DNA from: a virus
IMG/VR virus record: IMGVR_UViG_3300042112_000103
Span: 1-21,455 of that record
Length of the DNA: 21,455 nucleotides
Reading direction: 5' to 3' (one strand)
Position 1 is the stretch's first letter; each line of letters begins with the position of its first letter. A program made the position numbers and the translations under genes. The notes under the pieces are model-generated. The model worked only from the letters and a program-made list of their open reading frames with translations, ran no database searches and was not told the origin of the DNA. Shown here in pieces: positions 305 through 3,860 of the stretch.

Positions 305-573
305 AACCAGTCCTCCCGCCCGTCCGATCCGGCGAACGCAGATGGCGCAAAGTCCCCGATCACATCCGGGCAATGATACTCAAGGAGCATCCAACAATCT
401 CCTACTCAGAACTCTCTAAGAAATACAACCTCTCAAACTCCGTACTGTGGTACATCCGTAACAACGTCAAATTCCCAAGTAAGTACAAAAAAAATGAATC
501 TTCGAGAATACCAAAAACGAGTCGTCAACTGGGCCAAGACATCGGACGGACTGATCATCGCCCCAGCCGGTAG
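301..573 (+). CDS. Small basic protein with putative helix-turn-helix, 90 aa
   Basis: The start is the ATG at 301, which overlaps the previous stop (ATGA). Upstream extension to 166 would only read the previous gene out of frame. Residues about 20-50 (HPTISYSELSKKYNLSNSVL and on) look like a helix-turn-helix: a helix, a short turn, then a second helix with a YNLS boundary. The C-terminal part is rich in Lys, Arg and Ser. A DNA-binding role, perhaps regulating this block, is inferred. The last 80 bases overlap the beginning of the helicase gene in another frame, so the functional protein may end near residue 65, with the rest being a tail set by the overlap. Confidence in the gene is moderate and in the function low. 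Confidence 0.55.
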   Translation: MKPVLPPVRSGERRWRKVPDHIRAMILKEHPTISYSELSKKYNLSNSVLWYIRNNVKFPSKYKKNESSRIPKTSRQLGQDIGRTDHRPSR

Positions 574-2611
574 CGGCAAGACCTGGATCGCCGCTTCAAT
601 CGTCAACCTCTATCCCAATGATCGCATCGGCTGGTTAGCTCCAACAATCGAAACCTGCAAACAGGCAAAGGTAGCCCTCGACCTAGCCGGTGTTGATCCC
701 GCTCGCTACGAGATCCGATGCCCGCATGAGAGCGTCGATTTCACCAAGTGCGAACTCCTGATAGTGGACGAGTGCTTTCCTAGTTGGACAAAAATAGGCC
801 ATAAAAACATCAGCGAAATCAAAGCTGGAGACATGGTTGATTCGTACAACCACGATTTAAAAACCGTTGAAAAACGCAGAGTTCTTGAGGTCTTCAAAAC
901 GCCAGCACCGGACACAATGGTGACGGTTTGGACTGAAAACGGTCCAACAACCTGTACGCCAGGACACCCGTTCTGGAACGGATTCAAATATGTTCCAGCC
1001 GTGAGCTTGACACGCGACGATGTGGTGGCAATCATTCCATCGCATGAACATGGAATGCAGAGAATGTGGGTCGATGACCGAAAGAAAAGGTCATTTTTCA
1101 ACAACTCGGAAGCCGGTTTGCAATCAATGCAAAATCGCTCTCAGGTTAAAGAAAAAGAAACGCGTCGAAACTCAATGTGCTTGGTGCAAAACGCCAGTCA
1201 CCTGCATGGGGAGAACACCGGCTTACAAGAGTCTGGATGCAATCAAACGTGGTCGAGCATACTGCTCGACTCAGTGTCGGGATTTGATGGTTTCAAAAAT
1301 GAGTTCGGAAACAATGTCGGCCACCAACAAGCGGATGGGCGACAGGATTTCCAAATGGATGTCAGAGAGGATTGTCTCGGACCAGACCAGAAAACGCATA
1401 TCGGAATCGCTGAAAAAGATCGGCCACAAGCCAAAGTTGCGCGGAGGAAATGGGAAAGGCCCAACATTGCCGCAAAAAATTCTTTCGCTTATGTGCAATC
1501 TACAAATGGAGTATCCGATACGAACAGCAAACAGTGGGATTCCAAATGTTCCAAATTGCTACAAAGTGGATCTGGCGAGACCAGAAGTGAAACTAGCAAT
1601 CGAGGTGGACGGTTCGTCGCACGATTCACTCGAAAGGAAAGCTGCGGACAAAAAGAAAACAGAAACACTCAATTCACTAGGGTGGTGCGTGTTGAGGTTC
1701 ACAAACAAGGAAGTGATTCTTGGATCTCTGGAATGCTCGGAGAAAATTTTGTCTACAATTTCTCAGTTGAGGGGAATGAAAATTACTTCGCAAACGGAAT
1801 CCTAGTTCATAACTGCAAACACAGCCCAGCGAACCAATGGAAGCGTGTGGTCGAGCAGTGTAACGGGCGGCGTTATGGATTCGATGCGACTCCGTGGTGC
1901 GATGATCCAGATCGGAATGAAGTCCTGCGGAAGCTCTTCCGCAATCGTCAGATCGAGATCACCAGGGGCGACATCGGTGATTCATTGGCCGACGCAACCC
2001 TAGTCCTTTCCAACGCTACCGACATGGGTCTTGAGATGCGAATCGACAACAACATCGAGCGGTTGTTCAAAGATCGCCGTCGGTACATGAGGATAAGTGA
2101 CGACGAATTGAAACGGATGTGCGCTTGGGAATCCATCGTGGACATCGGCATCTGCCAGAACACCGCTCGCAACGAGTACGCCCGTGACGTTGCCATAACG
2201 CATGGCGATATGCAGACATTGATCCTGGTCCCGCGCATCACGCTCGGCGAGTGGTACGAGCATGAGATCCCCGGTGCCAGATTGGTTCACTCCAAGATCG
2301 GGAAGAAGGATCGACGCTTCTACATGGAGGAGTTCAAGAGCGGCAACCTGAAGACGATGATCGCCACCTCTTTGGCCGACGAAGGACTCGATCTTCCGAA
2401 TGCGGAGCTGTTGATCATGGTGAGCGGAGGGCGGTCTCCGCAGAAGACGATCCAGCGGGCCAGCCGTGTGTTGCGGAAGACATCGGATAAAAATAACGCG
2501 ACAATCTATGATTTCACGGACAAGTTCCATCCTATCGGAGCGTTCCACGCTCGGAAGCGAATCAAATCATACAAACAACTTGGGATCATAGATGAGTGCG
2601 AGTCCAACTGA
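494..2611 (+). CDS. DExH-box superfamily 2 DNA helicase, interrupted by an intein
   Basis: The 705-residue precursor contains a 347-residue intein (residues 94-440), leaving a helicase of about 358 residues after splicing, a usual size for compact phage SF2 helicases. Visible motifs: an N-terminal REYQ motif (Q7), Walker A APAGSGKT (23-30), motif Ia near WLAPTIETC, and motif II reconstituted across the splice point as VDE/CKH. Then come GFDATPW after the intein, ILVPR, motif V ATSLADEGLDLP and motif VI QRASRVLRK with its arginines. It should use ATP to unwind or remodel DNA in phage replication or recombination, as suggested by its SSB, resolvase and primase-helicase neighbours. The ATG at 494 lies inside the preceding gene and lacks a strong Shine-Dalgarno, but MNLREYQKR is a typical start for this family. 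It overlaps the SSB-like gene by 20 bases. Activity should depend on splicing because the intein splits motif II. Confidence 0.9.
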   Translation: MNLREYQKRVVNWAKTSDGLIIAPAGSGKTWIAASIVNLYPNDRIGWLAPTIETCKQAKVALDLAGVDPARYEIRCPHESVDFTKCELLIVDECFPSWTKIGHKNISEIKAGDMVDSYNHDLKTVEKRRVLEVFKTPAPDTMVTVWTENGPTTCTPGHPFWNGFKYVPAVSLTRDDVVAIIPSHEHGMQRMWVDDRKKRSFFNNSEAGLQSMQNRSQVKEKETRRNSMCLVQNASHLHGENTGLQESGCNQTWSSILLDSVSGFDGFKNEFGNNVGHQQADGRQDFQMDVREDCLGPDQKTHIGIAEKDRPQAKVARRKWERPNIAAKNSFAYVQSTNGVSDTNSKQWDSKCSKLLQSGSGETRSETSNRGGRFVARFTRKESCGQKENRNTQFTRVVRVEVHKQGSDSWISGMLGENFVYNFSVEGNENYFANGILVHNCKHSPANQWKRVVEQCNGRRYGFDATPWCDDPDRNEVLRKLFRNRQIEITRGDIGDSLADATLVLSNATDMGLEMRIDNNIERLFKDRRRYMRISDDELKRMCAWESIVDIGICQNTARNEYARDVAITHGDMQTLILVPRITLGEWYEHEIPGARLVHSKIGKKDRRFYMEEFKSGNLKTMIATSLADEGLDLPNAELLIMVSGGRSPQKTIQRASRVLRKTSDKNNATIYDFTDKFHPIGAFHARKRIKSYKQLGIIDECESN
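773..1813 (+). mobile_element. Intein in helicase motif II, with a nested out-of-frame endonuclease
   Basis: The intein is 347 residues in the helicase frame. It starts with Cys1 (TGC 773-775, in VDE/CFPSW) and ends with His-Asn (1808-1813), followed by Cys+1 (TGC 1814-1816, CKHSP). Block B has the TxxH motif TPGH within TCTPGHPFW. The C-terminal blocks are recognisable in VYNFSVEGNENYFANGILV then HN. All residues expected for protein splicing (Cys1, block B Thr and His, penultimate His, terminal Asn, Cys+1) are present, so splicing looks possible. Between about 1050 and 1700 the helicase frame encodes no LAGLIDADG or HNH domain, only a Gln/Asn/Ser/Gly/Arg-rich stretch without stops. The same bases encode a homing endonuclease one base out of phase (separate entry). 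Hand-counted GC is near 40-43% at 1081-1200 and about 60% at 541-600, which suggests arrival from elsewhere. Confidence 0.93.
1050..1805 (+). CDS. Vsr-like (EDxHD/DUF559-type) homing endonuclease in an alternative frame of the intein
   Basis: This frame is offset from the helicase frame and opens after a TGA at 1008-1010. From the ATG at 1050 it gives 251 residues. In order: CREC and CNQC (one zinc finger, residues about 3-27), CAWC and CSTQC (a second, about 43-76), then a NUMOD3-like segment with MSERIVSDQTRKRISESLKK. The RGGNGKGPTLPQK linker follows, and then a Vsr-fold nuclease core: YKVDLARPEVKLAIEVDGSS then HD, an RK/DKKK helix, and LGWCVLRFTNKEV. The likely catalytic residues are the Asp in KVDLA, Glu and Asp in IEVDG, and the following His. 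The expected role is cutting intein-free helicase alleles to drive intein homing. Starts at 1020, 1044 and 1074 are also possible and none has a clear ribosome site. The stop TAG at 1803-1805 lies only eight bases before the intein ends. This is not a frame shadow: the domain order and conserved residues match a known nuclease family. Confidence 0.85.
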   Translation: MECRECGSMTERKGHFSTTRKPVCNQCKIALRLKKKKRVETQCAWCKTPVTCMGRTPAYKSLDAIKRGRAYCSTQCRDLMVSKMSSETMSATNKRMGDRISKWMSERIVSDQTRKRISESLKKIGHKPKLRGGNGKGPTLPQKILSLMCNLQMEYPIRTANSGIPNVPNCYKVDLARPEVKLAIEVDGSSHDSLERKAADKKKTETLNSLGWCVLRFTNKEVILGSLECSEKILSTISQLRGMKITSQTES

Positions 2612-2933: not shown

Positions 2934-3377
2934 ATGAAAAAAGAAATCAGACAGGTGGCTGCGTTCATGGCCAGCTTTGGCCAGGACACAAAGGTCAATC
3001 CACGGATACCGGATGAAAAGACTCGCTCCCTTCGCCGTGCATTGATCGACGAGGAGGCCGCAGAACTCGAAGCATCCAAAGATCCGGTCGAAGCACTCGA
3101 CGCCATCGCCGACCTCCTCTATGTCGTCTACGGAGCGGCAATCGCTTACGGATTCAGCGAGGATCAGGTCGAGCGAGCGTTCCAGACGGTTCACGAATCG
3201 AATATGTCGAAGCTCTGGGCACCGGCTGAATTGCAGTCGATCAATCAGTTGGCCAATATGCCAAAGGATTACACGGTCGAGAAAACCGGGGTCCGCTACA
3301 TCGTGAAGCGTAAGGACGGCAAGATCATCAAGAGTCCTTCGTACAAACCAGCCGACATCGCCTCCTGCCTCAAATGA
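2934..3377 (+). CDS. MazG-like / PRA-PH-like nucleotide pyrophosphohydrolase
   Basis: The 147-residue, mostly helical product contains the all-alpha NTP pyrophosphatase pattern: DEEAAELE (about residues 39-46, giving the ExxE metal ligands), followed by EALDAIADLLYVVYGAAIAY (about 53-72, with Asp56 and Asp60) and an HESNMSKL motif (87-94) typical of phage members. Such enzymes cleave the alpha-beta phosphate bond of nucleoside triphosphates using Mg ions; in phages they are thought to alter host nucleotide or alarmone pools. The last 50 or so residues (GVRYIVKRKDGKIIKSPSY) form a short beta-rich basic tail beyond the catalytic core, also common in phage versions. It begins nine bases after the SSB-like gene and its stop overlaps the resolvase start as ATGA (3374-3377). 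Confidence 0.8.
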   Translation: MKKEIRQVAAFMASFGQDTKVNPRIPDEKTRSLRRALIDEEAAELEASKDPVEALDAIADLLYVVYGAAIAYGFSEDQVERAFQTVHESNMSKLWAPAELQSINQLANMPKDYTVEKTGVRYIVKRKDGKIIKSPSYKPADIASCLK

Positions 3378-3826: not shown

Positions 3827-3860
3827 CAAATGATAATACTACGCTGATCCGCATAAAAAC

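Follow-up and report, generated by a model that had tools for sequence, protein, structure and literature searches.

The textbook intein is one polypeptide, a splicing domain fused to an endonuclease. Fractured genes, in which split inteins occur together with EDxHD homing endonucleases, were reportedly described by Dassa et al. in 2009, and the PDB lists the EDxHD homing endonuclease I-Bth0305I (3r3p) as a mobile intron protein. Canonical inteins of the PI-SceI type normally carry an endonuclease that is fused in frame and placed between Hint blocks B and F, and they occupy a precise position within a conserved host-gene motif (PMC3943268). An endonuclease in a different frame is known from the ShiLan-type insertion in mycobacteriophage methylases, a mobile insertion with a stop-free host frame and a hidden out-of-frame HNH homing endonuclease, which has no splicing domain and whose host-frame product is believed to stay in the protein (PMC11855218). 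The same article cites a 2025 preprint on actinobacteriophage inteins of 'non-canonical architecture' for the frequent overlapping frames in actinobacteriophages. As far as this citation conveys its content, the preprint may cover part of the layout described here, namely out-of-frame endonucleases in inteins, and we therefore make no claim of first discovery.

The window analysed here, a stretch of 21,455 nucleotides (IMGVR_UViG_3300042112_000103), is of phage origin according to terminase and primase/helicase matches. Its helicase frame is a single ORF without stop codons (Table 1), of which residues 94-440 constitute an intein that interrupts helicase motif II after DE and before C(KH). The original prediction of an intein that is complete in this frame and carries no nuclease there was borne out. 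The splicing residues and motifs were found (C1, block B TCTPGHPF, block F and the C-terminal VHN/C, the slash marking the junction), and a Pfam search of the window's intein frame matched Intein_splicing and PT-HINT only and detected no nuclease domain. Among 53 intein-frame proteins of the family, all 53 matched Intein_splicing and none (0/53) a nuclease family in Pfam; the class 1 intein residues C1, T62, H65 and N347 are invariant and H346 is near-invariant in these inteins, with Cys at position +1. AlphaFold2 gave pLDDT values of 93-98 for residues 1-92 and ~300-347 and of ~40-50 in between. The intein frame is thus predicted to consist of both Hint halves around a disordered linker of ~200 residues. 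The C-terminal Hint half overlaps the 3' end of the nuclease gene up to position 1805.

Table 1 Features of the helicase-intein-nuclease locus in the window. Coordinates refer to the 21,455-nucleotide window.
Feature	Coordinates	Strand	Evidence
SF2-type helicase ORF (host gene: exteins and intein)	494..2611	+	Pfam Helicase_C 3.4e-13, ResIII 2e-7
Intein, 347 aa, cis, uninterrupted	773..1813	+	Splicing motifs; Pfam Intein_splicing 1.8e-10; exact intein-free alleles L260/L261
Single-coding N-terminal part of Hint (blocks A and B)	773..1048	+	AlphaFold2 pLDDT 93-98 (residues 1-92); dN/dS contrast
Nested EDxHD/DUF559 homing endonuclease gene, +1 frame	1044..1805	+	Pfam, conserved start, AlphaFold2, Foldseek 3r3p
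Intein-frame linker, ~residues 93-296, open, apparently unconstrained, predicted disordered	1049..1660	+	AlphaFold2 pLDDT ~40-50; intein-frame dN/dS 1.46
Cys-pair (zinc-finger-like) N-terminal region of nuclease	1056..1277	+	Conserved Cys in alignments
GGNG motif of nuclease (RGGNG in family)	1443..1454	+	Invariant in 9, near-invariant in 73 sequences
Catalytic DUF559/EDxHD domain (D..EVDGxxH...D...GWxxxRFxN)	1557..1757	+	Pfam; invariant D, E, D, G, H, D, R, N
C-terminal part of Hint with strand RVVRVEV, blocks F and G and terminal HN	1661..1813	+	AlphaFold2 pLDDT 94-98
Dual-coding element: GWCVLRFTN (nuclease frame) over Hint strand VVRVEV (intein frame)	1680..1706	+	Constant spacing, Arg codon bias

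One base out of phase, the same DNA encodes the nuclease that had been predicted, with a Pfam match to DUF559 (4.4e-12) and the motifs KVDLA, IEVDGSSH and LGWCVLRFTN. The predicted span of 1011-1805 holds as an open frame and not as the extent of the gene. Among the candidate ATG starts at 1020, 1044 and 1050, the first is not conserved (ATA in relative L004, GTG in L013), whereas ATG 1044 is kept in all relatives of the window's group and position 1050 is ATG or GTG. For these reasons 1044 or 1050 is the most likely start of the gene, rather than 1011 or 1020, judging from the alignments. Its TAG stop codon (1803-1805) lies within intein block G. From their lengths, the free intein of the window allele (347 aa) and the nuclease (253 aa) would have estimated masses of ~38 and ~28 kDa. 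The third frame over the same stretch contains 8-14 stops and both coding frames contain none in all ten family members tested, which argues against a chance overlap. The same element occurs on other viral contigs, in one of them with an identical nuclease.

DUF559 matched all 73 nuclease-frame proteins of the family, and the catalytic residues D, E, D, H, D, R and N are invariant in these 73 sequences. The AlphaFold2 model of the nuclease reached a pLDDT of 92.8; Foldseek placed I-Bth0305I (3r3p; probability 1.00) on top, followed by 3hrl, a DUF559 protein, and, with a weaker match, by Vsr (1cw0), and a sequence profile related the nuclease to I-Bth0305I with an E-value of 0.023. Catalytic residues and modelled Vsr-like fold thus point to an EDxHD nuclease. 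The earlier label of a zinc-finger/NUMOD-like/Vsr-like protein is in part retained, given the Cys pairs, the RGGNG motif and the Vsr-like fold; the NUMOD-like part was dropped as a claim because Pfam detected NUMOD3 in only 1 of 73 members.

The locus resembles canonical inteins in the position of the endonuclease between blocks B and F and in its precise insertion in a conserved host-gene motif. It differs from them in that the endonuclease is located outside the intein polypeptide, in the +1 frame instead of the Hint frame, while the linker in the intein frame is predicted to be disordered. With fractured genes it shares the nuclease family and a nuclease that is a separate gene between intein halves; here, however, host gene and intein are not divided into two separate halves but form a single ORF with an uninterrupted cis intein that is overlapped by the nuclease. 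The nearest published case is the ShiLan insertion (PMC11855218), which is likewise mobile and likewise combines a stop-free host frame with an endonuclease in another frame. Unlike in ShiLan, a complete Hint intein occupies the host frame, and the nuclease is of the EDxHD instead of the HNH type. I-Bth0305I is the best structural match for the catalytic domain of the nuclease.

Selection was analysed in both frames of ten members of the window's own group that could be aligned gap-free. Since dN/dS obtained by simple counting is distorted where genes overlap, interpretation is limited to the contrast between regions. The N-terminal part of Hint had a dN/dS of 0.18 when read as intein and of 1.05 when read as nuclease; in the middle of the element the corresponding values were 1.46 and 0.13. 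In the C-terminal overlap they were 0.32 and 0.53, with a divergence of about half that elsewhere. Along the element, substitutions shift from codon position 3 of the intein to codon position 3 of the nuclease. Comparison of these sequences therefore points to a change of the selected frame along the element and to constraint on both frames over the last ~145 bases; the original prediction had proposed a comparison of synonymous and non-synonymous changes in both frames. Within this overlap, 56 of 82 representatives encode the motif GWxVLRFxN over the Hint strand RVxxVE at a fixed 134 nt before the end of the intein; wherever the motif was detected, the Hint strand is co-encoded with it. The Arg of this motif is encoded by AGR in 77% of cases, compared to 35% at other Arg positions of the same genes (p 1e-13, related loci being counted as independent), a bias to be expected should the intein frame be of importance at this position as well.

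A profile of the nuclease retrieved 414 viral and 215 genome-contig relatives, mostly viral contigs and MAGs, of which the best 80 each were kept. Among these, 109 loci had a nuclease together with both intein halves. The nuclease is in the +1 frame relative to both halves in 109 of 109, and the intein frame is free of stops in 108 of 109, the exception being L117 (see below); the latter fraction and the counts of stop avoidance given below thus apply to loci selected for the presence of both halves. Of the 108, two represent second copies of CP-T1 and phi673, and 85 remain after dereplication at 80% identity. The overlap is present in Vibrio phage CP-T1, Corynebacterium phage phi673 (helicase gene gp43) and other Vibrio phages, in the isolate genomes of Ktedonobacter racemifer, Roseicella and Azospirillum and, including MAGs and counted from record titles, in ~14 bacterial phyla. 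The search for further inteins with a nuclease in a second frame, as originally suggested, hence yielded many. Insertion is nearly always in helicase motif II, at DE/C(H), in the 109 loci. A second search, seeded with the N-terminus of Hint, returned the same layout in 77 of 80 loci on contigs partly shared with the nuclease-seeded set; the others were two truncated contigs with the nuclease in +1 and one mini-intein (L221). On one viral contig (IMGVR_UViG_3300049719_000183), two nested nuclease-intein elements (L061 and L087) lie ~10 kb apart on opposite strands.

In the +1 layout, a stop in the intein frame arises only where an NNT codon of the nuclease precedes AA, AG or GA. Since this requires a codon ending in T, such a stop can always be avoided silently. 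NNT before AA, AG or GA was observed 0 times in 85 nested genes compared to ~1030 expected, a count which is conditioned on open frames, although only one locus was left out thereby. The same codon context occurred 498 times (524 expected) in 45 free-standing DUF559 genes, with at least one instance in 45 of 45. In the other phase, a stop is unavoidable wherever Lys, Asn, Met, Ile or Thr comes after Met, and 79 of the 85 nucleases would contain at least one (mean 2.35). The fixed phase can be explained by this asymmetry, as the other phase forces stops and those in +1 are silently avoidable. A single origin would also explain it.

The start of the nuclease is ATG in 75 of 82 representatives and lies a median of 6 residues before the first Cys. 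A Shine-Dalgarno motif precedes the nuclease start in 38 of 82 representatives, compared to 34 of 511 internal ATG codons (p 6e-18, with related loci treated as independent) and 81 of 867 flanking ATG codons. In three types of Vibrio phage, the GAGG motif is placed within the codons for Glu-Val of the intein. No clear Shine-Dalgarno motif was detected at the nuclease start in the window and its closest relatives, where most other genes checked in the window's contig are also without one. A stop in the nuclease frame is found at most one codon upstream of the ATG in 15 of 76 cases and within 10 codons in 38 of 76. Both the Shine-Dalgarno enrichment and the nearby stops support internal initiation of the nuclease over frameshifting, as far as can be judged from sequence. 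Programmed +1 ribosomal frameshifting, which would yield a fusion of N-extein, N-intein and nuclease and no separate protein, is in line with a phase that is always +1 and with the lack of a visible Shine-Dalgarno motif in the window family. However, the upstream stops leave almost no space for a shift site, and an ATG ~6 residues before the first Cys with strong Shine-Dalgarno enrichment is at odds with it, so that we regard frameshifting as improbable.

The chance is smaller still that the locus is a fractured gene, with two split-intein halves and a free-standing homing endonuclease gene between them. The nuclease family is the same, and exactly such a layout exists in a Lacinutrix MAG (L117:2481-3461), with the nuclease between the halves of a split intein, the same +1 phase and an intein frame broken by 23 stops. 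In the window and in 108 relatives, however, no stop separates the intein halves, and the active avoidance of intein-frame stops is understandable only for a precursor that is translated throughout. It is highly unlikely that the nuclease frame arose by chance or represents a gene that has decayed or is not expressed, in view of its dN/dS of 0.13 in the middle of the element, the invariance of catalytic and Cys residues in 73 sequences and the confidently modelled fold. As inteins normally carry the endonuclease fused in frame (PMC3943268), two compensating indels, by mutation or sequencing error, might have shifted a formerly in-frame endonuclease. An in-frame nuclease was found in none of the 109 nuclease-seeded and 80 Hint-seeded loci, the cultured phages CP-T1 and phi673 and the Vibrio phages have the same phase at 34-47% identity, and strong purifying selection acts on the nuclease in the phase that it now has, which makes this explanation next to negligible; the in-frame homologues or double indels that the original prediction had named as signs of an artefact were encountered in neither set of loci. 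The conserved +1 phase also led us to reject a chance ORF, a sequencing artefact and an in-frame ancestor as candidates.

We therefore favour, with a probability of about 0.87, the view that the cis-splicing intein of this phage helicase gene is overprinted by an autonomous, internally initiated EDxHD homing endonuclease. This reading draws on two open frames that differ in their selection regimes, a phase conserved among relatives, the signal at the nuclease starts, a modelled fold for each frame and the intein-free alleles described below. The anticipated self-contained nuclease gene in an uninterrupted intein is supported by the opposite selection, the phase in 108 of 109 loci, the Shine-Dalgarno enrichment, the stop avoidance and two fold models. 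The helicase frame would give rise to a precursor with a complete Hint splicing domain and a disordered linker of ~200 residues, from which the intein would excise itself and restore the helicase. From its own start within the helicase mRNA, the +1 frame would yield the EDxHD nuclease as a separate protein. This nuclease would cut intein-free helicase alleles at motif II (GACGAG/TGC), and repair would copy the whole element into the cut allele. Over the nuclease gene, the main role of the intein frame would be to stay free of stops and so let translation continue into the C-terminal half of Hint and the C-extein; constraint would act on both proteins simultaneously in the last ~145 bases.

Two viral contigs (L260, L261) carry intein-free alleles with intact motif II and an exact junction; identity amounts to ~98% for the helicase protein and to 94% for the downstream DNA. 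The empty allele of L260 would be a natural substrate for cleavage by the nuclease. Judged by match lengths, 78 of 80 helicase relatives match without a break at the insertion site. Distances of nuclease, Hint and helicase all correlate (Mantel rho 0.50-0.62), by which homing and co-inheritance are not separable, and discordant trees were for this reason dropped as proof of homing. The evidence for mobility of the element is provided, at the sequence level, by the empty alleles and the shared insertion site. Compared to the window (494-2611), L003 shows 97-99% protein identity in the exteins, 92% in the N-terminal part of the intein and 82% in the nuclease. This contrast suggests that the element may have been acquired or replaced separately from the host gene.

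Close relatives of the nuclease also occur as free-standing genes (L055:3010-3654, L077:2980-3627, L106:2992-3606), which adjoin the 5' edge of intein-free SF2 helicase genes and possibly represent an ancestral or collaborative homing state. In L221, a 137-residue mini-intein starts near position 3001 at the same helicase site and the nuclease is gone, as expected from the homing cycle. The split form in L117 has the same phase, and the fractured and nested forms thus look directly related; together with the profile and Foldseek matches to I-Bth0305I, this substantiates the proposed link to the EDxHD and fractured-gene family. A path from a free-standing nuclease via the nested overlap to a split intein is plausible, with the order of steps deduced from these forms.

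The layout is widespread, phase-locked and apparently old. In a wider reading, which we hold to be slightly better than an even bet, dual-coding inteins would be an old and widespread class with a single origin. One ancestral +1 overlap of EDxHD nuclease and Hint would have spread by homing into helicase motif II across many phyla and phages, and only the +1 phase would keep the intein frame open through synonymous changes in the nuclease. Stops in the linker alone could turn the nested form into a natural split intein, as in L117, and some inteins listed without an endonuclease may hide one in a second frame. The splicing domain and endonuclease are here two genes on one stretch of DNA, and therefore the nuclease dose could be uncoupled from splicing and helicase level. 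About 145 bases would encode two constrained proteins at once. The nested form would also offer a concrete route from a cis intein to a natural split intein, a long-standing question, and with its many alleles, empty sites, one mini-intein and one fractured form it provides a comparative system for the evolution of overlapping genes. Intein surveys that consider only the host frame will miss such endonucleases.

At position 3838 of the window, ~1.2 kb are absent that are present in L003, L260 and L261. In L260, this additional segment contains a 252-codon ORF resembling a metallophosphatase and, on the other strand, a small ORF.
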